Below, one piece after another: positions 7,253-21,292 of a DNA stretch of 39,059 nt. The notes beneath the pieces were generated by a model that saw nothing but the letters and a program-made list of their open reading frames with translations, was not told where the DNA came from and made no database searches. Position 1 is the first letter of the stretch; each line of letters opens with the position of its first letter. A program made the translations under genes and the position numbers. This DNA is from Lachnospiraceae bacterium. Lineage in GTDB: Bacteria; Bacillota; Clostridia; Lachnospirales; Lachnospiraceae. Location of the stretch: positions 1 through 39,059 of the forward strand of contig JAGAQJ010000001.1 in the NCBI GenBank assembly GCA_017622845.1, in the 5' to 3' direction.

Positions 7253-7411
7253 TTATCTTCTTGGTTCCCCATACTCCTGCTCCAAACGCTCTCTGAGACG
7301 TTTTCCTGTAAGCCTGAATATTATGATGCTTATGACAGCCAGCACGCATGCTGCTGCCATAAGCATCATTCCAGTAAAAAAAATAATTTCGCTTGAGCAT
7401 AAACCTGTCAT
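7253..7411 (-). CDS. Small single-span membrane protein, 52 aa
   Basis: A short open frame begins ATG ACA GGT and ends TAA. It encodes a hydrophobic helix (about residues 9-33) followed by a basic then acidic tail (RLTGKRLRERLEQEYGEPRR). A weak AAAGG ribosome site lies about 8 bases before the ATG. It is the first gene after the strong promoter at 7489-7517 and ends 21 bp before the kinase start, so it belongs to the kinase operon. The family is not recognised. A membrane partner or modulator of the kinase is inference. The alternative is a non-coding leader, but the helix-plus-charged-tail pattern and the position favour a real gene. Confidence 0.6.
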   Translation of the reverse strand: MTGLCSSEIIFFTGMMLMAAACVLAVISIIIFRLTGKRLRERLEQEYGEPRR

Positions 7412-7488: not shown

Positions 7489-7517
7489 ATTATATAACTC
7501 CTTTGCTCTTTTGTCAA
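7489..7517 (-). promoter_or_regulatory. Consensus promoter of kinase operon
   Basis: On the minus strand TTGACA (7512-7517) and TATAAT (7489-7494) are separated by exactly 17 bp, a full sigma-70/SigA consensus. It points at the 52-aa gene and the kinase. The last base of the -35 box is the first base of the proximal ACTCTATAGAGT palindrome. Confidence 0.85.
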
Positions 7518-7550
7518 CTCTATAGAGTATAATGATATACTCTATAGAGT
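7517..7550. promoter_or_regulatory. Twin palindromic operator, ACTCTATAGAGT x2
   Basis: Two perfect 12-bp palindromes lie at 7517-7528 and 7539-7550, 22 bp centre to centre (two helical turns). Relative to the kinase promoter they centre near -41 and -63. The same pair with the same spacing and the same overlap with the -35 box occurs at 20860-20893. Likely binding sites for the XRE regulator encoded at 20963-21292. The sign of the effect cannot be told. Confidence 0.85.
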
Positions 7551-7586
7551 ATTTTAATTGGTTTTCTGTTTTCGTCTATTCTTTAC

Positions 7587-7614
7587 TTGATAATTCTATC
7601 GAATATATTATAAT
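7587..7614 (+). promoter_or_regulatory. Promoter of stand-alone prepilin peptidase N-domain gene
   Basis: TTGATA (7587-7592), a 16-bp spacer and TATAAT (7609-7614) precede the gene starting at 7666. The twin operator lies 40-70 bp further upstream, so the same regulator could act on both divergent promoters. Confidence 0.6.
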
Positions 7615-7665
7615 ATGCTATAGAAGTTCTAAACGTTGCAAATGTATCATAATAGGAGATGTATC

Positions 7666-8172
7666 ATGTCTGACTTCACATTTTTTGTCATACTGTTAAG
7701 CACCAGTGCCATATTCGGCACTACAATAGGCGCCTATTACTGCACTATTGAATACCGTATACGGGCAAATCTGCCTCTGGTGACCTCCGGCTGCATCTGT
7801 CCTTCCTGTGGTCACAGGCTTGCACTGTATCATCAGATACCCATACTCAGTTTTTTCCTATTAAAGGGAAAGTGCCATTATTGCCATGCCCCTATTCCCT
7901 TCCGTTACCCTTTGACAGAAGCTGCCTTTCTGACCTACTATACACTTACCTTCTGCATGTTATATCGTTTTCCTCTTATCTTTATATCATTATGGTATTT
8001 ATTTGTTATGATATGGATATTAAAAAATGTGCATACAAAAAACAGCCGGAACTATAACCGGCTGTTAAAGGGTCTGCTGATTATCACTGCGTATCACGCT
8101 GTTATCGGACTCTTGTACATCATTTTGTATCTGGCAGTCTATGGCTCTTTCTTTCTAAACTGCCTGCCCTGA
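7666..8172 (+). CDS. Stand-alone prepilin peptidase N-terminal domain (DiS_P_DiS type)
   Basis: This 168-aa membrane protein carries the zinc-ribbon region found at the start of bifunctional prepilin peptidases: C45xxC48 and C70xxC73 flank HQIPILSFFLLKGKC, followed by PFRYPLTE. The A24 aspartyl protease domain normally fused behind it is absent. That domain is a separate gene at 11639-12280. In PilD-type enzymes this region precedes the protease domain and is tied to N-methylation of the pilin. Hydrophobic segments lie at about 5-25, 85-120 and 135-160. I chose ATG 7666 because AGGAG lies 8 bases before it. An upstream in-frame ATG at 7636 has no such site. The 3' end overlaps the convergent PP2C gene by 34 bp. 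Confidence 0.75.
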   Translation: MSDFTFFVILLSTSAIFGTTIGAYYCTIEYRIRANLPLVTSGCICPSCGHRLALYHQIPILSFFLLKGKCHYCHAPIPFRYPLTEAAFLTYYTLTFCMLYRFPLIFISLWYLFVMIWILKNVHTKNSRNYNRLLKGLLIITAYHAVIGLLYIILYLAVYGSFFLNCLP

Positions 8173-8894
8173 TGTACATAAAGCAAAACAGAAGACGCAT
8201 TGTCTCTTTCGCCACGTACCCGTACTGTTTTTATGATTTTCTTATTGATAGCTGCGAGCCTTCTATCCGAGCACAGCTTGGAACCCCTTTCCACAATATC
8301 CTCAAAACGAAGCAACTTAAACACTCCATCAGTCCCCAACAGAAACATCTCACCAGACTGCATGACACCCTTTCTCTTATTAAGCCAAAGCTTACGTGAC
8401 TTCCCCATATAATTCGCAAGATAGGACTTTATCTGTCCCTCTTTATTTTTTTGTACAACTTCATCCGGCGTGAGCTGATCCATGCTGTCTTTGACAGAAT
8501 ATATTCTGCTGTCTCCCACATGAAAAATAAAATATTCTCCGCCAAGAAAAAGCATTAATGACATCGTGCAGCCAATAGCAATATCATTTTTGTCCTGATA
8601 CTCACATACCAACTCATTCAGCTCATAAATAGTACACTCAAGATCAGCCAGAATCTCTTCACTGGCAAGCCGGTCACAATGCCCTTCCATATCCCTAAAC
8701 CATTTTTTGATTCCGCTGGTGACAAGCTCCGCTGCAAACTCACTCATCTCAAAGCTTCCAATGCCGTCACATACGCAGGCCGCTGCAAATATCTTTTTCC
8801 CGCTATTTCTTATAAGACATACCGCTCTGTCCTGATTTTTCCTTCTGAAATTCCCTTTATCGCTGATGCAGCTTGAAAACAGCCTATATGACAT
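8139..8894 (-). CDS. PP2C-family Ser/Thr protein phosphatase
   Basis: A 251-aa PPM/PP2C phosphatase. Metal-binding motifs are in order: QD at 21-22, CDGIGS with D43-G44, HVGDSRIYS, GTDGVFK and RDNAS near the C-terminus. It has no membrane segment and should be cytosolic. It would reverse phosphorylation by the kinase at 4253-7231. It is the last gene of the pilus operon. The ATG at 8894 lies 2 bp after the FHA gene stop. A TTG at 8903 would overlap that stop codon. Its 3' end overlaps the convergent gene at 7666-8172. Confidence 0.88.
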   Translation of the reverse strand: MSYRLFSSCISDKGNFRRKNQDRAVCLIRNSGKKIFAAACVCDGIGSFEMSEFAAELVTSGIKKWFRDMEGHCDRLASEEILADLECTIYELNELVCEYQDKNDIAIGCTMSLMLFLGGEYFIFHVGDSRIYSVKDSMDQLTPDEVVQKNKEGQIKSYLANYMGKSRKLWLNKRKGVMQSGEMFLLGTDGVFKLLRFEDIVERGSKLCSDRRLAAINKKIIKTVRVRGERDNASSVLLYVHQGRQFRKKEP

Positions 8895-8896
8895 TC

Positions 8897-10213
8897 CTAG
8901 CAAACCTGGTATGTAATTCCATATTTTTTTGTAAATGTAATATGGTCGCCTGAGTGAATCTGATACCTGCGGTTAGGTAAAAGCTCCTCATTATTTAAAT
9001 ACGTATGATTTTTTGAATCCAGGTCTATCACAAAGAATGCTTCTTCCGTTTTCTCAAAGCGTGCATGCCTGCGCCCTATGAACGTAAGCGACATATCAAA
9101 GTTGAAATCGGCACTCATCTTTCCTGTCTTATCATATCTTCCCACAATAACATAACCCTTGCTCATATCAAGTTCCATAAGCCCCGGAACCTTGTCCACA
9201 GAACTGCTTTCCAGCCGCATACGCAATGTATCGATATTCTCTGCTACATCTTCATCAGCAATTTCCGTATTATACTCTTGCTCCGGTGTTTGATATTTCT
9301 TTTGTACAGGTATCTGTCCTGTCTTGTATACATTGCTGTCAAATGCCTCGCCCTGTCCATTATCATCAACATGCTCCTTTTTGTCTCCTTCTTTGTCTAA
9401 CAGCTTTCCAAAGAGTCCCTTTGATTTCCTGCCCTTCTCTAATTTGCTTTCCTTTTTATTCTCTTTTCTATTTTCTTTGTCATTTTTCTTTTTTGCTCCA
9501 CTCTCATAATCAAAAAGCTTTGACCCAATTGTACCTGCAAGATTATTATCGTCATACTTCGGACCGACAACAGGCAGTGTTTCTTTTGGTATTTCAGGTG
9601 ATACTTTTCTTTCCTTCACAGACTGTTCCGAATCCACATCGAAAGGCTTTGATTGTTCTGCCGTCTCAATGCCATTATTTTTCAGCATATCCAAAAGAGC
9701 GCCCAAAGATGCCTCCCTTCCAATTACACAACGCACAAGTGAAGCCATATACGCCGGATCGTCCTCGATGTCTACTGACGCAATCAATTCACTGAAGAAC
9801 TTCAAAATATCCTCATCCGAATTCATTGTATTACTGGCAAATTCATTCATGGGCAGATATATATATTTCACTTTATAATCATTCTGATCTACCATAATAT
9901 AACTTCGGTCCAAATAGATATTCCGATAATCAAGAAACCAATCCGCACATTTCATATATGGCTCAACCATATGGTACAACAGCCTGTTCATTTCTCTTTT
10001 CCTCATTTTCTGAGGCATATATGCAAGTCTGATTCCCCCTTGAATCTCATATCTAAGCTGCAGCATATTATCTATATTTACTAATCTTATCGGCAGAAGA
10101 AATGAAGGGCAATCATACCGGATGACTCTGATTGCTGTCTGATCCAGGCTTTCAGGCCTATCCACTGTAACAGATGCATAATTCTTATTTGCTACAACAA
10201 TTTCATTAAACAT
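8897..10213 (-). CDS. FHA-domain protein with N-terminal DUF6382-like domain
   Basis: This is a 438-aa cytosolic protein. Residues about 1-180 resemble the DUF6382 domain found in front of FHA domains in clostridia. A long charged Lys/Glu/Asn linker follows (about 195-330). The C-terminal 85 residues are an FHA domain with the usual landmarks: IVGR, a GRRHAR motif (canonical G-R-xx-S-R-xH region), DSKNHTYLNNE and a closing YQV strand. FHA domains bind phosphothreonine, so this is the likely reader for the kinase and phosphatase. AAGGAG precedes the ATG. It sits between the WG-repeat gene and the PP2C gene in the pilus operon. Confidence 0.88.
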   Translation of the reverse strand: MFNEIVVANKNYASVTVDRPESLDQTAIRVIRYDCPSFLLPIRLVNIDNMLQLRYEIQGGIRLAYMPQKMRKREMNRLLYHMVEPYMKCADWFLDYRNIYLDRSYIMVDQNDYKVKYIYLPMNEFASNTMNSDEDILKFFSELIASVDIEDDPAYMASLVRCVIGREASLGALLDMLKNNGIETAEQSKPFDVDSEQSVKERKVSPEIPKETLPVVGPKYDDNNLAGTIGSKLFDYESGAKKKNDKENRKENKKESKLEKGRKSKGLFGKLLDKEGDKKEHVDDNGQGEAFDSNVYKTGQIPVQKKYQTPEQEYNTEIADEDVAENIDTLRMRLESSSVDKVPGLMELDMSKGYVIVGRYDKTGKMSADFNFDMSLTFIGRRHARFEKTEEAFFVIDLDSKNHTYLNNEELLPNRRYQIHSGDHITFTKKYGITYQVC

Positions 10214-10305
10214 TTGTTTTCTCCTTTTTTACTTTTAACGATCATACAGCCATCAGATTCCCTTATAGCTGTGAACCGTCTATACTGACTCGTTCTATTC
10301 TGCAA

Positions 10306-11610
10306 TCAATATAAAAATGTCATAATTTCACAATAACCCATTTTTTTCACAATAGCGCTTCCTTCAAAGAACGGCATCGCCTGCTCAAATTCAGGATTTA
10401 TCGCAAATTCATTCTTTTTGCTGATATACCCCCATTTCCCGGCATATTTTACGGGTGCAACCTCGCAGGACATGGAATATGCATCTTCATATTGGCAGGG
10501 AATAACCTGTTCCTTTATGCCGTCTGTAAATCCCCATTTTCCTGTCTTATCTGTAACTGCAATCCAGCCTCCTTCCGCACCTTTTGCATTCTCATAGCGG
10601 AAGTCGTTTAATGCTTCGCCTTTTTCATTGATAATAAAATATCCCGTTTGATCTCTCACTACAGCCCGGCCTGACGCAAATGCCTCCGCATGACTGTTTA
10701 AAACAACCTCATCATAAAGAAAATCTGTAATCATTGTGCCGTTTCCATCGGCAATTCCCCATTTCCCATGCTTCTTTACAAAACACAGACCATTTTCACT
10801 GATTATGGCATCCTCATAAACAGCACCTGTTATCTCTGTAAAAGTATTGGAATAAATACCAAACTGTCCGTTTTTCTCAGCTGTAATGCGCGTACCGGCA
10901 TGTCCGGTTACCTTGTCCAGCCCCAGTTTGTCTACAGCATACCAGTCTCCGCTGCCGTCTATCAGTGTATAAATTCCGTCCAGCTTCACAACAGCATACT
11001 TCTCAGAAAACGCAAGTGCCTCCTCATAGCCTGCTTCCAGCACAAGTCTTGCTTTCGTGTCTGCATACCCCCATTTTGTTCCATCAAAAAAGGGAATATA
11101 TCCATTTGACTGCGGCTGTTTCATCTCTTCAATGTTAGACTCTGCTGTTTTGATGCCATACCTTAACTGCTCATATAAAGCTTCCATACCTGCATCCTGA
11201 TACACACGCATTCCTGCCTTCAATATCTTTAATGCATTTTTGGCATCACCTGCGTCCGCGTATACCTTGGCAAGCTCCATATATTCTCCTGCTTCTGCCT
11301 TTTTATTTTCAATCCGTTCTTCAAGTAAATCGTAATATTCCTCCAGCTTTCCTGCTTGCTTATAGGCAGCAATTATCATCTTTTCAATCTCCGGATTTTT
11401 CTCTGTCTGATATGCATCTGCTGCCTCCTGATATTTGGGAATTGCCCGCATATAAAGCTCATCCTCCAAAAATCCTTCTGCCTGGTTCAAAATAATATTT
11501 TGATTTCTGTGCGGATCATTCATCACCGAAACAACTGCTGCGGAAAACCAGCCTGCCCCAGTCAGCAGGATAGTCAAAAATATCAGTAACCTTTTCTTTT
11601 TCTTTACCAT
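10306..11610 (-). CDS. Membrane-anchored TPR and WG-repeat protein
   Basis: A 434-aa protein with a basic N-terminus and one membrane span (about residues 8-30). A helical TPR-like region (about 40-155) follows, containing EGFLEDELYMRAIPKYQEAA and ILKAGMRVYQ. Then come WG repeats (KWGYADTKARLV, KWGIADGNGTM, KWGFTDG, KWGYISKKNEF), each ending in a short beta segment. WG repeats form beta-rich binding surfaces of uncertain function. The bulk should lie outside the membrane. Two adjacent ATG codons follow GGAGG. The second (11610) has the better 6-base spacing. Its place in the pilus operon suggests an assembly or sensing role (inference). Confidence 0.82.
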   Translation of the reverse strand: MVKKKKRLLIFLTILLTGAGWFSAAVVSVMNDPHRNQNIILNQAEGFLEDELYMRAIPKYQEAADAYQTEKNPEIEKMIIAAYKQAGKLEEYYDLLEERIENKKAEAGEYMELAKVYADAGDAKNALKILKAGMRVYQDAGMEALYEQLRYGIKTAESNIEEMKQPQSNGYIPFFDGTKWGYADTKARLVLEAGYEEALAFSEKYAVVKLDGIYTLIDGSGDWYAVDKLGLDKVTGHAGTRITAEKNGQFGIYSNTFTEITGAVYEDAIISENGLCFVKKHGKWGIADGNGTMITDFLYDEVVLNSHAEAFASGRAVVRDQTGYFIINEKGEALNDFRYENAKGAEGGWIAVTDKTGKWGFTDGIKEQVIPCQYEDAYSMSCEVAPVKYAGKWGYISKKNEFAINPEFEQAMPFFEGSAIVKKMGYCEIMTFLY

Positions 11611-11638
11611 CATGAGCCTCCGTTCCCAAATCCTCTGT

Positions 11639-12280
11639 TTATCCCATTAAATATCTAATAATCACTCCCAAATATAAAAATGGAACAAACGGTATGCATG
11701 TCTTTCGCGTCATCCTCTTTGATACAAGCATCAAGCAGGAAAAAGCCGCGCTTAGAATACAGCCGTAGAGCACTGCTCCTACTACATATTCGCTTGTCAT
11801 ATAGATACCCATAATAACCGACAGCTTCACGTCTCCTGCGCCCATGCTTCCTCTGCTTATCAAATAACAAAATCCAAAGCTGAACATGCAGAACAGGAAT
11901 CCAAGGATGACACCGAACATATGGCGCAGCATTGCGTTCATGTCATATGCGCCATATAATCCAATGCACAAAATCCAAAGCATCAGCCATATCAGCAGGA
12001 GACGGTTCGGCACCACCTTCTCCCAATAATCAATCATACAGAGGATTGACATTCCATACAACATCAGCACAAGCATAGCAAACAGAAATACTGCACCGCT
12101 GTTTTTGCAAATGCTGAGCCAAATCCGAAGGATTGCCGTTTCCGATAATGCCAGCATGCAATACTCCTGTATCGAATGAAACGGTCTTCGATATCCGCTG
12201 AGCAAAACTCCTGCTGCATATACCACAGGAAGAAAAAGCATGCTGATGATTAATATAATTATTAAAAATAACTCATTCAT
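11639..12280 (-). CDS. Prepilin peptidase catalytic domain (A24, TadV/CpaA-like)
   Basis: A 213-aa polytopic membrane protein with both aspartates of the A24 family: D84 in CMIDYWEKVVPNR and D150 in GSMGAGDVKL. It cleaves the leader of type IV pilins and pseudopilins at the inner face of the membrane. The cysteine-rich N-terminal domain of bifunctional enzymes is absent, as in Tad/archaeal-type peptidases, yet a separate copy of that domain lies at 7666-8172. I placed the start at ATG 12280, 1 bp beyond the previous stop, because GGAGG lies 11 bases before it. Longer frames to 12382 overlap the upstream gene without a ribosome site. Likely substrates are the Flp and TadE-like proteins upstream. 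Confidence 0.85.
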   Translation of the reverse strand: MNELFLIIILIISMLFLPVVYAAGVLLSGYRRPFHSIQEYCMLALSETAILRIWLSICKNSGAVFLFAMLVLMLYGMSILCMIDYWEKVVPNRLLLIWLMLWILCIGLYGAYDMNAMLRHMFGVILGFLFCMFSFGFCYLISRGSMGAGDVKLSVIMGIYMTSEYVVGAVLYGCILSAAFSCLMLVSKRMTRKTCIPFVPFLYLGVIIRYLMG

Positions 12281-12281
12281 A

Positions 12282-13031
12282 TCAATAGCTGCCTCCATCC
12301 CCATCAAGCCATGCAGGAACAATTGCTCTTTGCACAATATGAATAGAAGGATCCTTAAATAAAAGCCGGAAAAAATATACATCTAAATCATATTCGACCA
12401 CAATATCAATCATTTTAAACTCCGAATCCATAAAAATTTTACTCTGCCCAAAATCCATACCCTTCATCCCATTACGCACGCCAAAGGCTTTCAGATACGC
12501 ATCTGCACTTTTTCCTTCCCTGGTTAAAAAAGATGTATCCAGATAATTTTCGGTGAGTGCTTCTGATATTGCTGCAATCAAAATTGTTTTACCAGCCTCC
12601 TCAGCTTTTCCGATACCAAGATAGACAACATTCCGAATCAACGTCTGCGGACTGCTCACAAGCTCTCTTCCACTTCCTGTCACTCCTGTAAAATCCTCCG
12701 TTGAAAACGTTCCTCCTTCAAGGTTCGAGCGCGCAGTCTCAATATCCTCCAAAAATGCAGTAAGCTCTGCCGTCCCTGCTTCAATATCCTTGCCGAGCTT
12801 ACCGTCAGCAGCTCTTACACCCAATGCCTGATAAAAATATGTATAGGCAGACAGCTCGTTTGCTGTTTCATACAGCGCCACTTGTATCTTACTGTGCACT
12901 ATAAAAATATTAATAAAAGATATAATCCCCAATATGACTAATATAAATGGTACAAGACACAGGACTGCCTCTACAGTCATCATTCCTTTTTCCTTATTAT
13001 TATCTTCCTTTTTGCTGATACTGCTGTTCAT
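12282..13031 (-). CDS. TadE-like pseudopilin
   Basis: A 249-aa protein with a charged leader, then KEKG-MMTVEAVLCLVPFIL. The Gly at 16 followed by Glu at mature position +5 and a hydrophobic helix is the classic prepilin peptidase site (TadE/TadF type). The rest is a soluble, mixed domain with no recognised family. It is translated from an AGAGGG site just 2 bp after the DUF5702 gene, so the two are tightly coupled. It probably acts as a minor pilin or part of the pilus tip or base. Confidence 0.75.
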   Translation of the reverse strand: MNSSISKKEDNNKEKGMMTVEAVLCLVPFILVILGIISFINIFIVHSKIQVALYETANELSAYTYFYQALGVRAADGKLGKDIEAGTAELTAFLEDIETARSNLEGGTFSTEDFTGVTGSGRELVSSPQTLIRNVVYLGIGKAEEAGKTILIAAISEALTENYLDTSFLTREGKSADAYLKAFGVRNGMKGMDFGQSKIFMDSEFKMIDIVVEYDLDVYFFRLLFKDPSIHIVQRAIVPAWLDGDGGSY

Positions 13032-13033
13032 AG

Positions 13034-15535
13034 TTAGTACCCTCTAATCATCGTGTAGCTGATATACCCATCATCATATGACTGTATCTGTTTCTGTGTA
13101 TCGTTTCCGTTCAGGAATAAGTCAAGCATATATTCCGGCACTACCACCATTTCCAGCTTTGCCTTACAAGTCGTTTTTACTGCCGTAAAGGTATCTGACA
13201 TATGAAATGCAAGGGGCGCACTTAAAACATCTTCTTTATTTTGGCTTTGATTTACATTCAGCGTAATCAAATCCGAGGTTCTGCTTACAATCGTGCCGGA
13301 ATCCTTGCACACAAAAAGCAGCACACGCAGATAATCCTCATATGACATTTTCAGCTTCTTTCTCTTCGTATCAGAACTCCCGCCAGAACTCTTTGATATA
13401 GGTCCTAATATATCTCCTAACGCATCTACGCATTGCAGCTCATCGAACTCCGATTTGAAGAGCAGTACATCCTCTCTGTTTTTTAACATTTTCCAGTCCT
13501 CAACTGTTTCTAATGCTGCTACCGCACTACGCAGAGCCGCACTGACTGCCACCTTCACCAAAGGTGCAGCGAATGCTCCTATTCCTGTCGCAGACACCGC
13601 GCTCGCGGCAGCCTGCGCTATAGCTTTTATGGCATCATTAACTTCCTTGATTTTATAGGTCGAAATAAAATTTAACGTCATCCGCACACCGCAAATTGTA
13701 TTTCTTGCCGCTGCCAGATTTTTCTGCGACTCTGCATGTCCTCCATAAATGTATTCGAGCTCCGCGCCATAAAGATAATTAATATCTTTGGACATTGGCA
13801 CTTTATTCAGACTATTCTCCACTATTTTTTCGGTCTCTGTGCTGCCATCTCCACCTTCTGATTTCTCCTTTATCCCCGTCACTCTGCTTGAAAACATTCC
13901 AAAATCATACTCTGTCATAAGGAATTTGTCATAAATAGCTGCACCAGCCTGACCTGCATTTTTAAAAGAAAAACCATTTTTAAAATAATCAAAAAAGCTC
14001 GGCACTTCTCCTGTTGATTTACAATCCTTTAGCTCATTCACTACGTCTGCCGGAATATCTCTTGCCTCTGTATCCTCTTCTTCCTCACTAATCTGTTTTA
14101 CCGCATCATCAGTCTTATTATTTGCAGCTTCTTTTGTCTCGTCCGCATCCTTTTTCTTTTTTCCGGCTTCCGTATTACTGTCATACAATTGCTGCAGCTT
14201 TGTATAGAGTGAATCCGGTCCCTCCGGTATCTTCCACCACTCAGCCTTATTTACATCAGCTGCACTATCAACCCAATAGACATTTCCCTCTATTTCTCCA
14301 CTGATAATATCATTTGCAAGCACGTTCAGTGCCTTGTATCCGTCAATTCCATTATACACTAAACCATGAAAATATATTTTATTCCTATTATTATTGCCCT
14401 TGTTATCCTTTAATTCCTCATTTAAGCATACCTCAATAAACATTTGGCTGAAATCGGCAATTGTCCGCATCTCTTTAACATCCTCTTCCATTCCTTTGCG
14501 AACATCTTCTGAGCACTTTTCCAGCTTTTTATCCAATACTTCAAGTTCTTCTTTAATCTCTGTAATATAATTCTCAATCTTGACTGCGGACTTTTTCAAT
14601 TCGTCTATCATTCGCGGAATATCTCTAAATAAGTCCCTGTCCAGCAAGTCAACTGCGGCTTTTGACTTCGGGTCTATCTTTTTTCTCATTTCTGACCTGT
14701 AAGTTTCCACATCAACATACTGTTCCGCCAGTTCCTTTATCTCTTCACTAACTTCCTCATCCGCCGCTTCAAGTTGTTCCTTTTCCCTCTTTGCCTCAAG
14801 AATTTTATCCTTATTATCTAAAAATTTTTTATACTTTACATAATCATTGCTGGAATAGATTTCCGTAAGCACACCGCCATATGCACCAACTGCCGTTTTT
14901 AAATCTTCCAAATATTTTTCATAGTCTTTTAGGGAAAGCAGCAGCGAATGATATGTATCAATCTCCTTTAACAGCTTTTCACTGCTTTCCCCTATATCAT
15001 TAAAGGCATCTATTGCCTCATTATCCTCCTCCATTTTGTTAAACTGCTCTATCATATCAAAAACACCATCATCCACATCTCCCATTTCATTTATAACCTG
15101 TCCGACAATGCGGAACTCCATATAATCAGCTACCTGTGTCATAAAAACATTTTCATTAGTAAGTGAAGAAGCTTCTATCTTTTCATATTGAAATAAAACA
15201 TCTGCATCACTAAAAAACATGGAACCTGAGAGTTCACTTCTATCTCCGTTCGGCTTGAAAGAGTATCCGATATAATCTGCATAGTCATCTATCGCTTTTA
15301 ATCCGGCTTCATTTTGTGTAACAGAAAAAAGCCCATAAAGCTCCTTTAGCAGATTATCATATTCGCTCAGTATCACATCGCCATAGGAATCAGATGCATA
15401 TGCTGTCTGTACCGCAAAAAGCTTCAGCCTTGCTACATCCACCATAATTCCTGTTATCACCACAACCGGCACCATAATCAGTACTACAAAAACCGTAATA
15501 ATGCCATGCCTGTTTTTTCCAAAATTTCTAAACAT
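13034..15535 (-). CDS. DUF5702-type membrane protein of Tad operons
   Basis: An 833-aa protein with one N-terminal membrane span (HGIITVFVVLIMVPVVVITG) after a short basic leader. Its TadE/TadG-like start has Phe, not Glu, at +5 after the Gly. It matches my memory of DUF5702 proteins found in clostridial pilus clusters. A long Glu/Lys-rich coiled-coil region spans about residues 180-370. An Ala-rich hydrophobic patch lies near residues 635-665, which could be a second membrane-interacting segment. By operon position and topology it resembles TadG, the large pseudopilin-like component. Start: ATG after AAGGA at 11 bases. Confidence 0.7.
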   Translation of the reverse strand: MFRNFGKNRHGIITVFVVLIMVPVVVITGIMVDVARLKLFAVQTAYASDSYGDVILSEYDNLLKELYGLFSVTQNEAGLKAIDDYADYIGYSFKPNGDRSELSGSMFFSDADVLFQYEKIEASSLTNENVFMTQVADYMEFRIVGQVINEMGDVDDGVFDMIEQFNKMEEDNEAIDAFNDIGESSEKLLKEIDTYHSLLLSLKDYEKYLEDLKTAVGAYGGVLTEIYSSNDYVKYKKFLDNKDKILEAKREKEQLEAADEEVSEEIKELAEQYVDVETYRSEMRKKIDPKSKAAVDLLDRDLFRDIPRMIDELKKSAVKIENYITEIKEELEVLDKKLEKCSEDVRKGMEEDVKEMRTIADFSQMFIEVCLNEELKDNKGNNNRNKIYFHGLVYNGIDGYKALNVLANDIISGEIEGNVYWVDSAADVNKAEWWKIPEGPDSLYTKLQQLYDSNTEAGKKKKDADETKEAANNKTDDAVKQISEEEEDTEARDIPADVVNELKDCKSTGEVPSFFDYFKNGFSFKNAGQAGAAIYDKFLMTEYDFGMFSSRVTGIKEKSEGGDGSTETEKIVENSLNKVPMSKDINYLYGAELEYIYGGHAESQKNLAAARNTICGVRMTLNFISTYKIKEVNDAIKAIAQAAASAVSATGIGAFAAPLVKVAVSAALRSAVAALETVEDWKMLKNREDVLLFKSEFDELQCVDALGDILGPISKSSGGSSDTKRKKLKMSYEDYLRVLLFVCKDSGTIVSRTSDLITLNVNQSQNKEDVLSAPLAFHMSDTFTAVKTTCKAKLEMVVVPEYMLDLFLNGNDTQKQIQSYDDGYISYTMIRGY

Positions 15536-15576
15536 ATTTATCTAAATCCTTTTTTGGCAAAAATATTCCTTCTTAC

Positions 15577-16239
15577 TTAATTAAATAATTTGCTGTGCAT
15601 TTTATCATAAACTTCCCCTATCTTAGAGGCAATTTTTCCTGCTGCCTCGCCGACCTTTGTATCCTCCAGTATATCAATCGCATAATCTGCATTTCTTATC
15701 AGCTCGTCATGATCCACCACCGCAACCCTTGCCGCTGCCGACAGATGTACATCACCGTCAATTCCAATAATAGAAAGGTCTATCGGAAACTTTATGTCCT
15801 GTTCGGCTGTTACCCGTATTTCTTTGAACAATATATAATTAGAATAATCTATCTTTAAGTTAATATCATCTTTATATAAAAGATTGTTTGCTATCGAATA
15901 GAAATATTTCTCAAACTCCTGCCAGCTTAACTTTTTATCCGTAATCGTAAACTTATTATATGGATTCAGCGGACCTGTTACCTGATAGCTGTTTCCCTGT
16001 GCTGCAACACTGCCCTCCCCGGCTGTATATGTGACCGTCTCATTCTGTGATACATAGTTGTCGGTCAGCGTATTTTTGAAATATACAACCGAGGTTTCCA
16101 GTGCCGACTGCAGAATGGCTTTTTGGAAGATAAAGATGGAGGTATACAGAAGAAATATGACACACAAAATCGCAATCGGTAACATAATAGTGGCTTCGAC
16201 TACTACGTCACCTCGTTCGTTTTTATTCTTATCCTTCAT
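15577..16239 (-). CDS. TadE-like pseudopilin
   Basis: A 220-aa protein with leader MKDKNKNERG then DVVVEATIMLPIAIL: Gly10, Glu at +5 and a hydrophobic helix, the canonical site for prepilin peptidase. The C-terminal domain (about 45-220) is soluble. GGAGG lies 7 bases before the ATG. It directly follows the flp pilin gene. Together with the genes at 12282 and 13034 it makes three TadE/TadG-like subunits in one operon. Confidence 0.78.
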   Translation of the reverse strand: MKDKNKNERGDVVVEATIMLPIAILCVIFLLYTSIFIFQKAILQSALETSVVYFKNTLTDNYVSQNETVTYTAGEGSVAAQGNSYQVTGPLNPYNKFTITDKKLSWQEFEKYFYSIANNLLYKDDINLKIDYSNYILFKEIRVTAEQDIKFPIDLSIIGIDGDVHLSAAARVAVVDHDELIRNADYAIDILEDTKVGEAAGKIASKIGEVYDKMHSKLFN

Positions 16240-16260
16240 CGCTAAACCTCCATCGCTAAA
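16237..16260 (-). repeat. 14-bp duplication spanning the tadE-like start
   Basis: The sequence TTTAGCGATG occurs twice, 14 bp apart. The second copy holds the true start of the tadE-like gene. The first creates ATG GAG GTT TAG, a four-codon frame that contains the ribosome site. It may affect translation initiation or simply be a slippage product. Confidence 0.5.
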
Positions 16261-16279
16261 TTAAAATTTAAATTTATTT

Positions 16280-16501
16280 CTAAGTTGGAGTGAAATTAAA
16301 TATTGTGTCCATCATATTGCCAAGCCACTCTGACAGTCGTTCCCAAAATACACCTATAATCAATACAACTATCAAAACCAATATAATTGTCGCCACCACA
16401 TTCGAAACACCATACTCCTCTGCAAAGAAATTTTCTATATTTTCCTTGCATTTCCACATACGGGTCTTCATGCTGACTGCCATATTATCCAATACGTTCA
16501 T
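16280..16501 (-). CDS. Flp1-like type IVb pilin
   Basis: A 73-aa small pilin. A charged N-terminal segment ends in FFAEEYG (Gly31), followed by a continuous hydrophobic helix (VVATIILVLIVVLIIGVFW) and a short C-terminal tail. This matches the Flp1-like pilins of Firmicutes. The mature +5 residue is not Glu, so the exact cleavage point is uncertain. I chose ATG 16501 because AGGAG sits 8-9 bases before it. An upstream start at 16522 lies inside that site. It should form the main filament. Confidence 0.82.
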   Translation of the reverse strand: MNVLDNMAVSMKTRMWKCKENIENFFAEEYGVSNVVATIILVLIVVLIIGVFWERLSEWLGNMMDTIFNFTPT

Positions 16502-16537
16502 TTCCTGCACTCTCCTTTGCATTATTTTATATTAAAC

Positions 16538-17635
16538 CTATATGCCCAAATTGAAGCCTGACATAACAGGAATAATAATCACTACAAGTACTCCGACAAA
16601 CATAATCATGGTCGGAATAAACAGCTTTGTCTGCACCTTATCTGCCATGCGCCTCGCCGAGTGCTTCTTTTCCAGCCAGCACTCATCATTCAGGTTTTTC
16701 AAATCATCTGCCAGATTTTCATTACCGGAGCTAAAGCTTTTTGAAACGATTGTTACAAGCTTGTCAATATACTTATTGCTGCATCTTCCCTGCATCCGTG
16801 TAAGCGCGCCCTCCAGCGATATGGACTGGCTGCTTTCCTTTACAACCGTAACAAATTCCCTGTAAATCAAACCTTCGCCGCTTACCGCTGCCTGTTCTAT
16901 TGCTTTGCTGATGTTCATTCCCGACAACAGCAAAAGCGCCAGCTTTGAAATCATATTCGGAAGCTCCCTGTCTATCTCCTCTTTCCTTTTTGCCGCTTTA
17001 TTTTTTAATGAATCAAGCGGAAGGTACCCGATAACCGCCATTGCTGCTGCCACAGCAATCCCTGTCATGAGCGATATACGCATTTCTTTACCTGACAGCT
17101 GCATCAGCAAAAAAGTAAAGCTGCCAAGCATTACACCCACATAAAGAAATGAAACCACAGATGAAAAAATATAATAAGAATAAAGCATGGAATTTTTCTT
17201 TCCGTTTGTCTCCTGTCCACGCTCAAGCTCCATATATCCTGACTGCTCGCAGCTCAGAATCAGACCTCTGAGCATGTCGCTGTCCACATCAAGGCCAACC
17301 GCCATACAGAATCGGTATCCCACCAAAGGAAGTAAATCTGTTATGCCGATTCCTTTTCCTGACAAATAAAACTCTTCCTTTTCGGCATAAGACGCAATCT
17401 GTTTCTCGTCTGCCTTTTTCTTCTTTTCCAGCTTTTTTTTGCTGTAAGTATGATATTTTTCGTTGTGCCGTATGTAATCACTGCACTTTTCCTGCAGCTC
17501 AATTTTTGCAAACCTGTTCTGCCATGCTTTTGCTATGACAATCTCCACAATCGTTTCCTGACTGCTTCCGGCAATACAAATCAGAAAATATACTGACAAT
17601 ACTGTCAGCAGCGCTGCTGCCACGATTACTGCCAT
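16538..17635 (-). CDS. tadC: Tad-type inner membrane platform protein TadC
   Basis: A 365-aa protein with an N-terminal span (about 3-23), a central pair of spans (about 160-215) and a C-terminal span (about 342-363). Between the last two is a T2SSF-like cytoplasmic domain (LPNMISKLALLLLSGMN, ALTRMQGRC). This is the usual TadC layout. It would form the membrane platform with TadB and take up force from the TadA ATPase. GGGGGAG precedes the ATG. It ends 36 bp before the flp pilin start. Confidence 0.85.
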   Translation of the reverse strand: MAVIVAAALLTVLSVYFLICIAGSSQETIVEIVIAKAWQNRFAKIELQEKCSDYIRHNEKYHTYSKKKLEKKKKADEKQIASYAEKEEFYLSGKGIGITDLLPLVGYRFCMAVGLDVDSDMLRGLILSCEQSGYMELERGQETNGKKNSMLYSYYIFSSVVSFLYVGVMLGSFTFLLMQLSGKEMRISLMTGIAVAAAMAVIGYLPLDSLKNKAAKRKEEIDRELPNMISKLALLLLSGMNISKAIEQAAVSGEGLIYREFVTVVKESSQSISLEGALTRMQGRCSNKYIDKLVTIVSKSFSSGNENLADDLKNLNDECWLEKKHSARRMADKVQTKLFIPTMIMFVGVLVVIIIPVMSGFNLGI

Positions 17636-17646
17636 ATTCTCTCCCC

Positions 17647-18411
17647 CTATACCTCAATATCTACTGCCTTCGTTGCAAGCACATAGGATATTCCAAGCGC
17701 CGCGACACCGACTGTAGCCGCCGCTCGTCCGGGCATGGTTGTAAACAGCGCATCCAGAAAACCGCTCCCCATCGCAGACATTGCAAGCACTATGATAACC
17801 GGCATTACAAGCATGGTATATGCCTCCGATTTTGCTGATGAGATCACTGTCTCAACTTCCTGCGTAATCTCAAGCTTGTCCCTGATGATATCATGCGTCT
17901 GCCTGATGATATAACTGAAGTCACTGCTTTTTCTGTCTATTGTCTCATAAATGGTCGCAAAACTCTTGATGTCGTCCACTTCACTTCTCTCGCCAAGTTC
18001 TTTGAAACCGTCCTTCATCGGAATCCCTGCCTGCTCATAATCACTGACGATCATTGCAATTTCCCTGACAATGTCAGCCTTTTCGTTAAACATCATTTTC
18101 AACTCACGCAGCGAGTCCTTAATCGCATTTTCCATAGAGCGGCCGCTTCCTCCACTGATGGAAATCGTAATAATTTCAAGAAAATCCTTAAACTGAACGC
18201 GTAGTCTGTTCTGACGCTTCTTTACTACTGATTTTGCATAAAATTTTTCCTGAAAAACAGCGATAACTGCTCCGCCTGCTACAGAGACAAGAAGATTATG
18301 GTAATAAATAAAAAGTATGACGCTGATAACCGCCATAAATATCAGATATGCAAGTAAATGCTGCAATTTTGTCATATTACATTCGTAATACTTAATTCTT
18401 ACCTTCTCCAT
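17647..18411 (-). CDS. tadB: Tad-type inner membrane platform protein TadB
   Basis: A 254-aa protein with hydrophobic spans near residues 20-50 and 205-250 around a T2SSF-like core (FLEIITISISGGSGRSMENAI, DYEQAGIPMKDGFKELG). It is shorter than proteobacterial TadB and lacks the N-terminal extension. Its start overlaps tadA by 20 bp, indicating translational coupling. It pairs with TadC to form the pilus platform. Confidence 0.85.
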   Translation of the reverse strand: MEKVRIKYYECNMTKLQHLLAYLIFMAVISVILFIYYHNLLVSVAGGAVIAVFQEKFYAKSVVKKRQNRLRVQFKDFLEIITISISGGSGRSMENAIKDSLRELKMMFNEKADIVREIAMIVSDYEQAGIPMKDGFKELGERSEVDDIKSFATIYETIDRKSSDFSYIIRQTHDIIRDKLEITQEVETVISSAKSEAYTMLVMPVIIVLAMSAMGSGFLDALFTTMPGRAAATVGVAALGISYVLATKAVDIEV

Positions 18412-19708
18412 TCTTCTCTCCCTTTGTATTCTGTTCTAAAAAATCATATATGCCGGAAAGCACAAATTTGTCCTGATGTAAAATAGGATTTGCAGTCCGT
18501 TTCAATCTTCCCGAGACCTTGTGAAGCGTTGTCTGCTCATCCTCTTCAAACTTATAAATCGGATTTAAAGTCACTCTGCCATCACTATACTCTACAACCT
18601 CGCAAATCTCCATAACTTTTCTCGAAAAGTCCCTGAGTCTCGAAAGATGCACAATATAATCAACCGCCGAGGCAATCTGCATACGTATCGCTTCCAGCGG
18701 CAGGTCCGCGCTTCCAGTTAGAACCATTGTCTCCAAACGGCTTATCATACCCTCCGGTGAATTAGCATGACCTGTCGAGAGACTTCCGTCATGTCCGGTA
18801 TTCATTGCCTGAAGCATGTCAAGCGCCTCCTCCCCCCGCACTTCTCCTACAACAATTCTGTCAGGACGCATTCTAAGAGATGCCTTAATCAAATCACGTA
18901 TTGTAATTTCATTTGCTTCTTTGGAATTTGCTTTTTTTGTCTCCATTCTTACTAAATTGGGAATGTTTTTAATCTGAAGCTCCGCAGAGTCCTCTATCGT
19001 TATCACACGTTCCCACGGCTGTATATAATTTGACAATGCGTTTAAAAAAGTTGTTTTACCGCTTCCTGTTCCTCCGCATACAAATACATTATGCCTTGAC
19101 CGGACAACCTTTTCCAAAAACTCTGCCGCCTCTGTCGTAATTGAGCCATACTGTAACAGTTTCTCAATGGTCATGGGATTCTTGGAAAATCTTCTTATCG
19201 TTACCGTCGCACCATTTAAAGCTACCGGCGGAAATACAACATGCACACGCGAGCCATCGTCCAGTCTGGCATCTACGATTGGATTACTGGCATCTACTGT
19301 CCTGTCCATAGCGCTTACAAACTTCTGTACAATTCTTATCAACTCGTCATTGTCCTGAAAGTGCTCATCCAACCGCATCAGTTTGCCTGCCTTTTCAACA
19401 AATATCGTATCATAGCCGTTTATCATAACCTCGGTAATATCAGAATCTGTGATAATTTTTCCTAAAATTCCAAGTCCCTCTACAGACTCATTAATCGTAT
19501 ATCTGAGCATGCTCTTTTCCTTAAAGCTCAAACCCTGATAATACCTGTATACCTCGATATCATTCGCATGTGCCCACTGTTCACGCTCAGTAAGCTTGTC
19601 ATTAATCAGCTTTTCAAATTCCTCTGCATTATATTCCCTGATTCTGCTTGCTTCCTGAACAGCTTGTTTTAAGACTGCTACCTCCTGCATAAATAAATTC
19701 TTTTCCAT
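18392..19708 (-). CDS. tadA: Tad pilus assembly ATPase TadA/CpaF
   Basis: A 438-aa secretion ATPase of the VirB11/CpaF branch. Walker A is GGTGSGKTT at 212-220. An Asp box (TIEDSAELQI) starts near 237. MRPDRIVVGEVRGEEALDML includes the Walker B region, and TGHDGSLSTGHANS is the histidine box. It hydrolyses ATP to drive pilin assembly. The start is the first ATG. AGGAAAGG lies about 13 bases upstream, so a slightly later start (ATG at residue 7) is possible. Strongly conserved; identity is secure. Confidence 0.95.
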   Translation of the reverse strand: MEKNLFMQEVAVLKQAVQEASRIREYNAEEFEKLINDKLTEREQWAHANDIEVYRYYQGLSFKEKSMLRYTINESVEGLGILGKIITDSDITEVMINGYDTIFVEKAGKLMRLDEHFQDNDELIRIVQKFVSAMDRTVDASNPIVDARLDDGSRVHVVFPPVALNGATVTIRRFSKNPMTIEKLLQYGSITTEAAEFLEKVVRSRHNVFVCGGTGSGKTTFLNALSNYIQPWERVITIEDSAELQIKNIPNLVRMETKKANSKEANEITIRDLIKASLRMRPDRIVVGEVRGEEALDMLQAMNTGHDGSLSTGHANSPEGMISRLETMVLTGSADLPLEAIRMQIASAVDYIVHLSRLRDFSRKVMEICEVVEYSDGRVTLNPIYKFEEDEQTTLHKVSGRLKRTANPILHQDKFVLSGIYDFLEQNTKGEKNGEGKN

Positions 19709-19738
19709 TTTTGTAACTGTACCTTTCCTTTGATCTTC

Positions 19739-20779
19739 TTATTGCAAAAGGTCATTTATATAAATGCCATTTTCCTGTCCAATGGAATTCAAAAGGTCAT
19801 TATTTAAAATACTTCCATAACTGTGGACAACACCAATTACCGGAAGCTGAAGCTCATAATTCTTTTTATTTGATTCCGCAAAATTTTTGACCAGAACCAT
19901 GCGTTCTCTATGCTCAGTAGTCCAAATCTGTTCGTCAAAATTTTTCATTTTCGCATCTGCATTTTCACTGTTTCTTTGAACTACGACAATTTTGTCAGAA
20001 GTCTCCAATACTGCTTTCGTCAATTTATCAAGACAACTCCCTGTATCAATCACCATAAAGTCGCACACGCCGCACTGCTTAATTTTACTGATAACCGTTT
20101 CCATTTCCTCCGAGTTTACATCATCATAATCTACAAGCCTGCGAAAACCTTCAAGATATAGAAATCCCATCTCATTTTCTTTTAAGATTCCTTTCAGAGT
20201 CAGTTGAAAATTGCCGGTTCCATTCAAGGTCTCTACCAATCGGGTGATTCCCTCATCCTGCACTTTAAAGCAGGAAGATGAACTACTAATCTGCTCTGTT
20301 GATAAAAACAGCACTTTTTTATTTACCTCATGAAGTTTCCTCGCAATTGCTAATGCAATTGTTGTCTTCCCACTCCCACCAATTGGCGAGTAAACTGATA
20401 TGACTTTTGTACTTTCCTCCCTGAAAAACTCCAAATCATCTTCCCCAACGTACTCTGCATAGTTTTTTAATATTTCCTTATAAATATTACTGATACGCTG
20501 ATACTTTTGAATTGCTGCTACTGATGGATATATCTTTCTGTTTTTTGTTTCTTCGCTGCAAAGGCATATTGGCATTGACCCTGTTGAAAAGTTTATTGGA
20601 TTTTCTGATATGTCAGGCTGAAAAAGAACAATTTGGAACGAATTTTGCTCCATAGCCTGCTCAAAAGTCTCTTTTCTTGAAAAAATGGAAACGGAAAGCT
20701 CATCATACTGCTGCAAAACACCTGACAAACGCTCCAAATAATTTCTATCTTTATCCAATATGGCTATTTTTATATTCAT
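19739..20779 (-). CDS. tadZ: TadZ/CpaE-like ParA-family ATPase
   Basis: A 346-aa protein. An N-terminal atypical receiver-like domain (about 1-110) is followed by a MinD/ParA ATPase domain with a deviant Walker A, SPIGGSGKTT (131-140), and VIDTGSCLD further on. TadZ/CpaE proteins place Tad machines at a defined site in the cell, often the pole. It is the first gene of the 12-gene operon, 53 bp behind the -10 box of the consensus promoter. GGAGG precedes the ATG. The following tadA gene starts 30 bp downstream. Confidence 0.85.
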   Translation of the reverse strand: MNIKIAILDKDRNYLERLSGVLQQYDELSVSIFSRKETFEQAMEQNSFQIVLFQPDISENPINFSTGSMPICLCSEETKNRKIYPSVAAIQKYQRISNIYKEILKNYAEYVGEDDLEFFREESTKVISVYSPIGGSGKTTIALAIARKLHEVNKKVLFLSTEQISSSSSCFKVQDEGITRLVETLNGTGNFQLTLKGILKENEMGFLYLEGFRRLVDYDDVNSEEMETVISKIKQCGVCDFMVIDTGSCLDKLTKAVLETSDKIVVVQRNSENADAKMKNFDEQIWTTEHRERMVLVKNFAESNKKNYELQLPVIGVVHSYGSILNNDLLNSIGQENGIYINDLLQ

Positions 20780-20831
20780 GTTCAGCCTCCAATAGATGTC
20801 TTACATCTTTTTCCAGAAATTTAATAAATTT

Positions 20832-20860
20832 ATTATATATTTATCATTTTCTTTTGTCAA
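20832..20860 (-). promoter_or_regulatory. Consensus promoter of the Tad operon
   Basis: TTGACA (20855-20860), a 17-bp spacer and TATAAT (20832-20837) on the minus strand, pointing at tadZ. Architecture is identical to the kinase-operon promoter at 7489-7517, including the overlap of one base with the operator. Spacer sequences differ, so this is conserved design rather than a recent copy. Confidence 0.88.
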
Positions 20861-20893
20861 CTCTATAGAGTATATTTTAATACTCTATAGAGT
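20860..20893. promoter_or_regulatory. Twin palindromic operator, second copy
   Basis: ACTCTATAGAGT at 20860-20871 and again at 20882-20893, 22 bp apart centre to centre, exactly as at 7517-7550. The distal copies are extended to TACTCTATAGAGTA in both loci. The site lies between divergent tadZ and the XRE gene, so it probably also controls the regulator itself. A weak plus-strand -10 (TATACT, 20918-20923) lies downstream of it. Confidence 0.88.
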
Positions 20894-20962
20894 ATATTTA
20901 ATTATGATATATGTTGCTATACTTACTTATAGGTAGTATTTAATCATGTTTGGAGTGAATTT

Positions 20963-21292
20963 ATGAAATCAGATAGGGAATACAATTTAATGGTAGGCCT
21001 AAGAATTCGTGAAGTTAGAGAATCTTTTCATCTTACAAGAGAAAAATTTAGTGAAAAATGTGATATATCTCCAAGTTTCCTTGCCGATATAGAGAGAGGA
21101 AATAAAAGCCTTACGGCAAAAACAATTTATAAAATTTGTGATGCCTGCAATATCTCGGCTGATTATATTATTTCAGGGCATAAATCGGGCTTTGATAAAG
21201 ATTTGGCTATAGAAATGCTTGATCACTATTCTGATGAACAGCTAGAACATATAACAAATATCCTATATGAAATACGCCAGCTTTCACGATAA
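20963..21292 (+). CDS. XRE-family transcriptional regulator
   Basis: A 109-aa protein. Residues about 11-65 form a Cro/CI-type helix-turn-helix (LRIREVRESFHLTREKFSEK, then CDISPSFLADIERGNKSL). A short C-terminal helical tail (EMLDHYSDEQLEHITNILYE) may mediate dimerisation. It has no sensor domain. GGAG lies 8 bases before the ATG. It is divergent from tadZ across the twin operator, the usual place for a local regulator, and is the best candidate to bind ACTCTATAGAGT here and at 7517-7550. Activation or repression is not decided by sequence. Confidence 0.88.
   Translation: MKSDREYNLMVGLRIREVRESFHLTREKFSEKCDISPSFLADIERGNKSLTAKTIYKICDACNISADYIISGHKSGFDKDLAIEMLDHYSDEQLEHITNILYEIRQLSR

Follow-up and report, generated by a model that had tools for sequence, protein, structure and literature searches.

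C proteins of restriction-modification systems act through paired operators, by which their own genes are switched on and later off, and in the Esp1396I system the C protein also represses one further gene via an extra operator (PMC4041747). The C-protein sites are about 4 base pairs (bp) apart, or 18 and 25 bp in C.Csp231I and EcoO109I (PMC4321490). A locus of similar design is found in contig JAGAQJ010000001.1 of a Lachnospiraceae bacterium (assembly GCA_017622845.1), whose positions 1 to 39,059 on the forward strand are called the window here. It comprises a gene for an XRE-family regulator, hereafter XRE, and two copies of a paired palindromic operator, one ahead of a Tad pilus operon and the other ahead of an operon with a Ser/Thr protein kinase gene. 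In gut Lachnospiraceae, XRE and the paired palindromes are found together, for the most part at promoters of pilus and secretion genes, and as judged from the sequence they very probably form a genetic switch that times these surface machines. Similar to C.Esp1396I and C.AhdI, XRE is a small XRE/HTH protein with two operators beside its own promoter, and autoregulation is proposed for it; a further operator on another gene is found for C.Esp1396I as well as for XRE. The structure model of XRE matches C.AhdI over about 62–65 columns with a TM-score by target of 0.87. Different from these C-protein sites, however, the 12-bp sites found here have 10 bp between them, and the targets are pilus and secretion genes. 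Moreover, no restriction-modification genes were found among the 28 window proteins scanned with Pfam, a scan of the larger proteins with the small open reading frames (ORFs) outside it.

At OR of phage lambda, the operators of cI lie between divergent promoters, and one of them is near -42 of the weak promoter of cI itself. Similarly, the operators next to XRE lie between divergent promoters, and one is near -42 of the presumed promoter of the regulator. Lambda, however, has three sites where two are found here, and XRE, with 109 amino acid residues, has no cleavable C-terminal domain. No phage genes were seen among the window proteins scanned. The operators, their promoters and the regulator gene are as follows.

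7489 to 7517, minus strand: kinase operon promoter, with the -35 box TTGACA at 7517-7512, a 17-bp spacer and the -10 box TATAAT at 7494-7489
7517 to 7528, no strand: proximal palindrome ACTCTATAGAGT on the kinase side, with one base in common with the -35 box
7539 to 7550, no strand: distal palindrome ACTCTATAGAGT on the kinase side, 22 bp from the proximal one
20832 to 20860, minus strand: Tad operon promoter, with TTGACA at 20860-20855, 17 bp and TATAAT at 20837-20832
20860 to 20871, no strand: proximal palindrome ACTCTATAGAGT on the Tad side
20882 to 20893, no strand: distal palindrome ACTCTATAGAGT on the Tad side, its centre 30 bp ahead of the XRE -10 box
20915 to 20923, plus strand: extended -10-like box ahead of XRE (TGC TATACT), without a consensus -35 box
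20963 to 21292, plus strand: XRE-family regulator of 109 residues (HTH_3), the proposed binder of the palindromes
7587 to 7614, plus strand: promoter-like site of a prepilin-peptidase-like gene (TTGATA, 16 bp, TATAAT; 11/12 in the consensus scan)
7593 to 7626, no strand: third, degenerate operator pair ATTCTATCGAAT-N10-ATGCTATAGAAG with 22-bp spacing, its first site one mismatch from AYTCTATAGART

At both places, the minus strand carries two perfect ACTCTATAGAGT palindromes with centres 22 bp apart, followed by TTGACA-N17-TATAAT, and in both promoters the proximal palindrome and the -35 box have one base in common. The kinase and Tad promoters each scored 12/12 in the consensus promoter scan, from which the XRE -10-like box is absent because its -35 box is missing. 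The third pair straddles the -10 box of the plus-strand promoter of the prepilin-peptidase-like (A24_N_bact) gene. With up to two mismatches, ACTCTATAGAGT occurs in the window only at the four sites, against a shuffle mean of 1.16; 3 of 100 shuffles reached four, a comparison that takes no account of all four sites being perfect and paired. With one mismatch, AYTCTATAGART occurs at five sites, a number reached by none of 100 shuffles.

The pair is also rare in the genome to which the window belongs (G000; 3.6 Mb, 95.3% complete). Allowing up to one mismatch, the four exact ACTCTATAGAGT sites and a single-mismatch site on another contig were found. As a reversed-pattern control gave 9 places per strand at one mismatch, the number of near matches is unremarkable, and it is the perfection and pairing of the sites that stand out. 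Pairs with up to three mismatches were found at these two places only, and none was found with the reversed control. A profile (R1) spanning the pair and the adjoining -35 end was derived from 14 sites beside XRE and at the kinase promoters, the two known places among them, which it matched with E-values of 1.7e-12 and 4.3e-12. The third match was 7593-7626, with E-values of 1.4e-4 on one strand and 5.7e-4 on the other, and the next had an E-value of 0.108. R1 scores no more than 150 candidates in each genome, or 16 in the family search described below, and weak pairs can escape it. Thus, the exact twin plan that the original prediction had described at the two promoters was confirmed by the perfect pairs, the 12/12 promoters and the lack of other exact copies in the genome.

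The layout of the sites, its conservation and its co-occurrence with XRE are seen in the sequences of relatives, whose genomes and loci are designated below by G and L numbers, respectively. In a genus set of 38 genomes, G000 included, close XRE orthologs were identified in five (G000, G031, G023, G020, and G003). The identities of the four besides G000 were 73–81%; the E-values were 3.1e-49 or better, and the next homolog had an E-value of 3.8e-18. R1 matched the same five genomes at 8.6e-11 or better, and its best match among the other 33 was 0.0115. A TadA match was found in 36 of the 38 genomes but the pair only in the five with XRE; thus, the presence of Tad does not by itself account for the operator. 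Among 397 genomes sampled from the family, XRE was found in 10 at an E-value of 1e-22 or below, and R1 at 5e-4 or below matched eight, all among these 10, including G400 and G076, no sequence of which was used to build R1. Because R1 came from sites beside XRE, a search with the bare pattern that was blind to XRE (up to three mismatches) was added. It found the pair in seven of the 397 genomes, again all among the 10; the reversed-pattern control found one genome, outside the 10. The three XRE genomes missed by the bare pattern were G361 and G076, both found by R1, and G302, which has one good site.

A pattern scan of genome contigs returned seven stretches, six of which had XRE beside the pair, all in Lachnospiraceae or Roseburia records; four of these six are apparently the same contigs as in G003, G020, G023, and G341. 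The seventh, from Bacteroidales (L057, about 6130-6210), was taken as unrelated; the locus has no XRE match. This stretch is intergenic and holds four CTATAGAGT-like copies at 22-bp spacing. The search of the genome and its relatives for pairs, proposed at the outset, was therefore passed, as the pair was not scattered over unrelated genes. The suggested involvement of the XRE gene is supported at the level of sequence, in that the pair tracks XRE orthologs and not Tad genes, and the same sequence test also favours the proposed link between the two operons. In addition, the view that the plan is under selection agrees with a layout that is kept in relatives while the spacers differ.

This layout was compared in 16 XRE loci, among which the near relatives L059/L073 and L070/L072 were counted separately. 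Both sites matched at 10/12 or better in 15 loci, the script having sought 22-bp spacing so that all hold their best pair at 22 bp, and L077 had one good site only. In 12 of the 16 loci, a -35 box shared one base with the proximal site; it was TTGACA in 10 and TTGACT in two (L069 and L071), and the other four loci had no such box. TATAAT stood at the 17-bp position in seven of the 12 partner promoters with a -35 box, and the -10 boxes of L056, L074, L059, L073, and L075 were imperfect. In the genus, all seven partner promoters seen were TTGACA-N17-TATAAT. On the XRE side, a -10-like box was placed 23–25 nt past the distal site in 12 of 16 loci by the script (range 15–32 nt), or in 16 of 16 when four boxes read by eye at 23–24 nt are counted, the script having chosen other boxes for L070, L071, L072, and L076. 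It had the form TG or CG, one base, TANACT in 14 of the 16, and in the 12 script-placed cases the -35 region was off consensus at 3 to 5 of 6 positions. XRE has two palindromic operators upstream of its own gene, and the centre of the distal one would be at about -42 of a promoter without a good -35 box, as counted from the predicted start site. In L041, the stretch from the operator to XRE is interrupted by a run of N, which is flanked on both sides by letters of the XRE promoter.

XRE scored 50.2 bits against HTH_3, for which the curated cut-off is 23, and belongs to the XRE/HTH_3 family. Its structure model is all-helical with a mean pLDDT (predicted local distance difference test) of 89.2. 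As the first matches in a fold search with this model were ClgR (3f51) and SinR (1b0n), and C-protein structures also matched, XRE looks like an ordinary XRE regulator by predicted fold. The identities of ClgR and SinR to XRE were only 20–22% and the TM-scores by query about 0.55. The operators of ClgR and SinR differ from ACTCTATAGAGT.

In a tree of 39 XRE proteins, in which the tool flagged several long branches, the 17 labelled carriers of the pair stood on one side of one branch with a support of 90/74. L076, with an imperfect pair, and L077, with one good site, were labelled as carriers by hand, and L059 was excluded, its XRE being cut by the locus end. The carrier branch was found in 88% of 200 bootstrap trees, and none of 500 label shuffles was as low. 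All 17 carriers have S or G as residue 38, and 21 of the 22 others have K, Q or R, the exception being L166, which has an S-type helix and weak sites only. By the pair cut-off of 21, which was chosen by us, no pair was found for six distant homologs in the genus (L047-L052; for L051 only 141 bases upstream were available) or at 16 of 18 loci of order-level XRE homologs. The two order-level exceptions were L150, with a pair at 22 bp, and L153, with a pair at 21 bp. For comparison with background, 37 other loci with a total of 247,222 bases contained one 12-mer at 11/12 and none at 12/12.

The genes of the window that flank the operators are as follows.

7253 to 7411, minus strand: small conserved ORF of 52 residues (ORF52), apparent head of the kinase operon, with identities of 62% in G031 and 44% in G020
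4253 to 7231, minus strand: Ser/Thr protein kinase of 992 residues with a C-terminal extension (Pkinase, 2.1e-35)
210 to 4145, minus strand: protein of 1311 residues 3' of the kinase, with only a sub-threshold CBM_X2 match in Pfam
7666 to 8172, plus strand: A24_N_bact protein, with the N-terminal domain of prepilin peptidase only (Pfam)
8139 to 20779, minus strand: Tad operon, encoding TadZ, TadA, TadB, TadC, Flp (sub-threshold), ORF220 (no match), DUF5702, TadE, an A24 peptidase, a WG-repeat protein, a DUF6382/FHA protein and PP2C

The XRE gene is divergent from the Tad operon, and the reversed A24_N_bact gene stands between PP2C and the kinase operon, which runs toward the contig end. Across genomes, the pair remains next to XRE, and different genes lie on its other side. 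There, the Tad operon is found in G000, G031, and G003, TadZ and TadA in L056, L074, and L075, and a protein with Big_2 Ig-like domains in L059 and L073. In G020, the ORF52-kinase-large protein operon is followed by a type VII cluster (FtsK/SpoIIIE with an FHA protein, YukD and WXG100), and in G023 the pair faces type VII genes with FtsK/SpoIIIE, FHA and WXG100 domains. A TPR protein and a kinase are found in G361 and L069/L149, with FtsK/SpoIIIE and a sub-threshold WXG100 match further on. In G400 and G076, no partner promoter is seen at the pair beside XRE, and a LytTR-domain gene is preceded by a second pair that has TTGACA-N17-TATAAT. No partner was identified for L071, where the contig ends, L076 and L077.

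In G003 (88% complete), the kinase gene comes after PP2C on the same strand with about 230 bases between them, and the search of this genome found one pair. PP2C and kinase are separated by the reversed A24_N_bact gene in G000 and G031, where a second pair is ahead of ORF52 and kinase. This pattern hints at common control of phosphatase/FHA and kinase having been kept, for which it would be expected. The second pair of G031 differs in its letters (ATTCTATTGAAT, ACTCAATAGAAT) but has the same register, spacing, -35 overlap and 17-bp spacer. The G031 stretch that matches the third pair of the window keeps it only in part, as judged by eye.

XRE is probably an autoregulated repressor that co-controls the Tad and kinase operons via the pairs, a reading to which we assign a probability of about 0.62. 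We infer binding, dimers and tetramers, start sites, repression, co-expression and a signal. One XRE dimer would sit on each palindrome, and as 22 bp are about two turns of the helix, both dimers would be on one face of the DNA. With XRE at the proximal site, the partner operon (Tad or kinase) would be blocked at its consensus sigma-A promoter, and with XRE at the third pair, the prepilin-peptidase-like gene would be blocked. Because the distal site is at about -42 of the promoter-like box of XRE, which has an extended -10 but no -35 box, XRE would also control itself, either activating or limiting its own synthesis. A signal would then release XRE, and pilus, kinase and large protein would come on together. 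The consensus partner promoters of the genus (7/7), occlusion at the -35 edge and the third pair over the -10 box of the A24_N_bact gene lean toward repression, whereas the original prediction had allowed for an activator as well as a repressor.

Several observations weigh against this reading. An activator, too, would need sites at constant positions such as these, about -41 and -63, and since only five of the 12 partner promoters are full consensus, there is some room for activation. In this family, acidic HTH residues resembling the activating patch of lambda cI are common. The pair at 7517 lies 13 kb from XRE, and its link to XRE rests on sequence identity. Autoregulation alone would explain the site beside XRE in L070, L072, L076, and L077, which are without a partner promoter. 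R1 matches its own building sites by construction and holds most of the sites called pairs, and six of the 33 genus genomes without a close XRE ortholog show weak partial R1 matches (E-values of 0.0115–0.094). Finally, as the carriers form one clade, helix and site may reflect one common origin instead of repeated co-evolution.

A sub-case of the repressor reading, which we regard as possible though short of even odds, is a dual role like that of lambda cI, in which XRE would repress the partner operon and, bound at the distal site, activate itself. It is suggested by the XRE box, which has no -35 and is 23–25 nt from the distal site, and by retention of the site beside XRE in the loci where no partner promoter is visible. 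A site at -42 plausibly allows self-activation, by which the circuit would become two-state; autorepression also fits this placement, the start sites of XRE being predicted ones. XRE might instead activate the partner operons, its proximal dimer at about -41 touching RNA polymerase in class II geometry. An activator would fit the strict distance to the -35 box, seen at the kinase promoter of the window as well as in 12 of the 16 loci, and also the five imperfect -10 boxes. We consider it unlikely: the genus partner promoters, being full consensus with 17-bp spacers in seven of seven cases, should need no activator, and the third pair covers a -10 box. That another protein binds the palindromes and XRE is a mere neighbour is very improbable; XRE, whose binding is itself predicted, is distant from the palindromes at 7517 and 7539, but the site is present where this XRE clade is, whichever of several partner genes lies next to it. 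Least credible are sites that are a mobile repeat or a recent functionless copy of one promoter, which would account for the layout and some flanking letters common to the two promoters but not for pairs at the same two places in G031 with partly different letters in the same register, and the mobile repeat was rejected with only two perfect pairs in the genome. A scan also flagged both pairs as terminator-like on the plus strand; they were read as DNA sites and not as RNA hairpins because they are upstream of the predicted start sites of the flanking genes.

Regulators of this type are already known; our search of openly licensed papers found neither this XRE clade nor its operator or targets. 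It returned no description of the operator, nor of Tad being controlled by XRE in Lachnospiraceae, and the only match to ACTCTATAGAGT was a paper on a human thyroid receptor gene. For the Tad pilus and type VII secretion genes of gut Lachnospiraceae, a regulator and its binding site can now be named as concrete candidates. The rarity of the site suffices to define the regulon by sequence and therefore makes co-regulation of pilus, kinase and phosphatase directly testable. More tentatively, and with less confidence than the repressor reading, the system might be a portable two-state switch, in which quite different surface machines across Lachnospiraceae (Tad pili, type VII secretion with Ser/Thr kinase, and Ig-like surface proteins) are placed under all-or-none, self-sustaining control by one XRE clade and its fixed operator grammar, and in which the splitting of an operon is followed by a new operator copy.

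The remaining window proteins scanned are housekeeping or unrelated ones, such as FtsH, purine synthesis proteins and a pyruvate/ferredoxin-type oxidoreductase. In G020 (L046, 1737-9935), type VII secretion genes come after the kinase operon. The kinase operon of the window, which is cut by the contig end, could belong to a type VII secretion system; no match to type VII secretion genes was found in the 19.9 kb downstream in G031. The genome of the window also contains a second TadA at C4:34847-35947 (55% identity), like those across the genus, and the R1 search found no operator pair on contig C4. Finally, the prepilin peptidase of the window seems to be split between the A24_N_bact-only protein on the plus strand (7666-8172) and a Peptidase_A24-only protein in the Tad operon (11639-12382).

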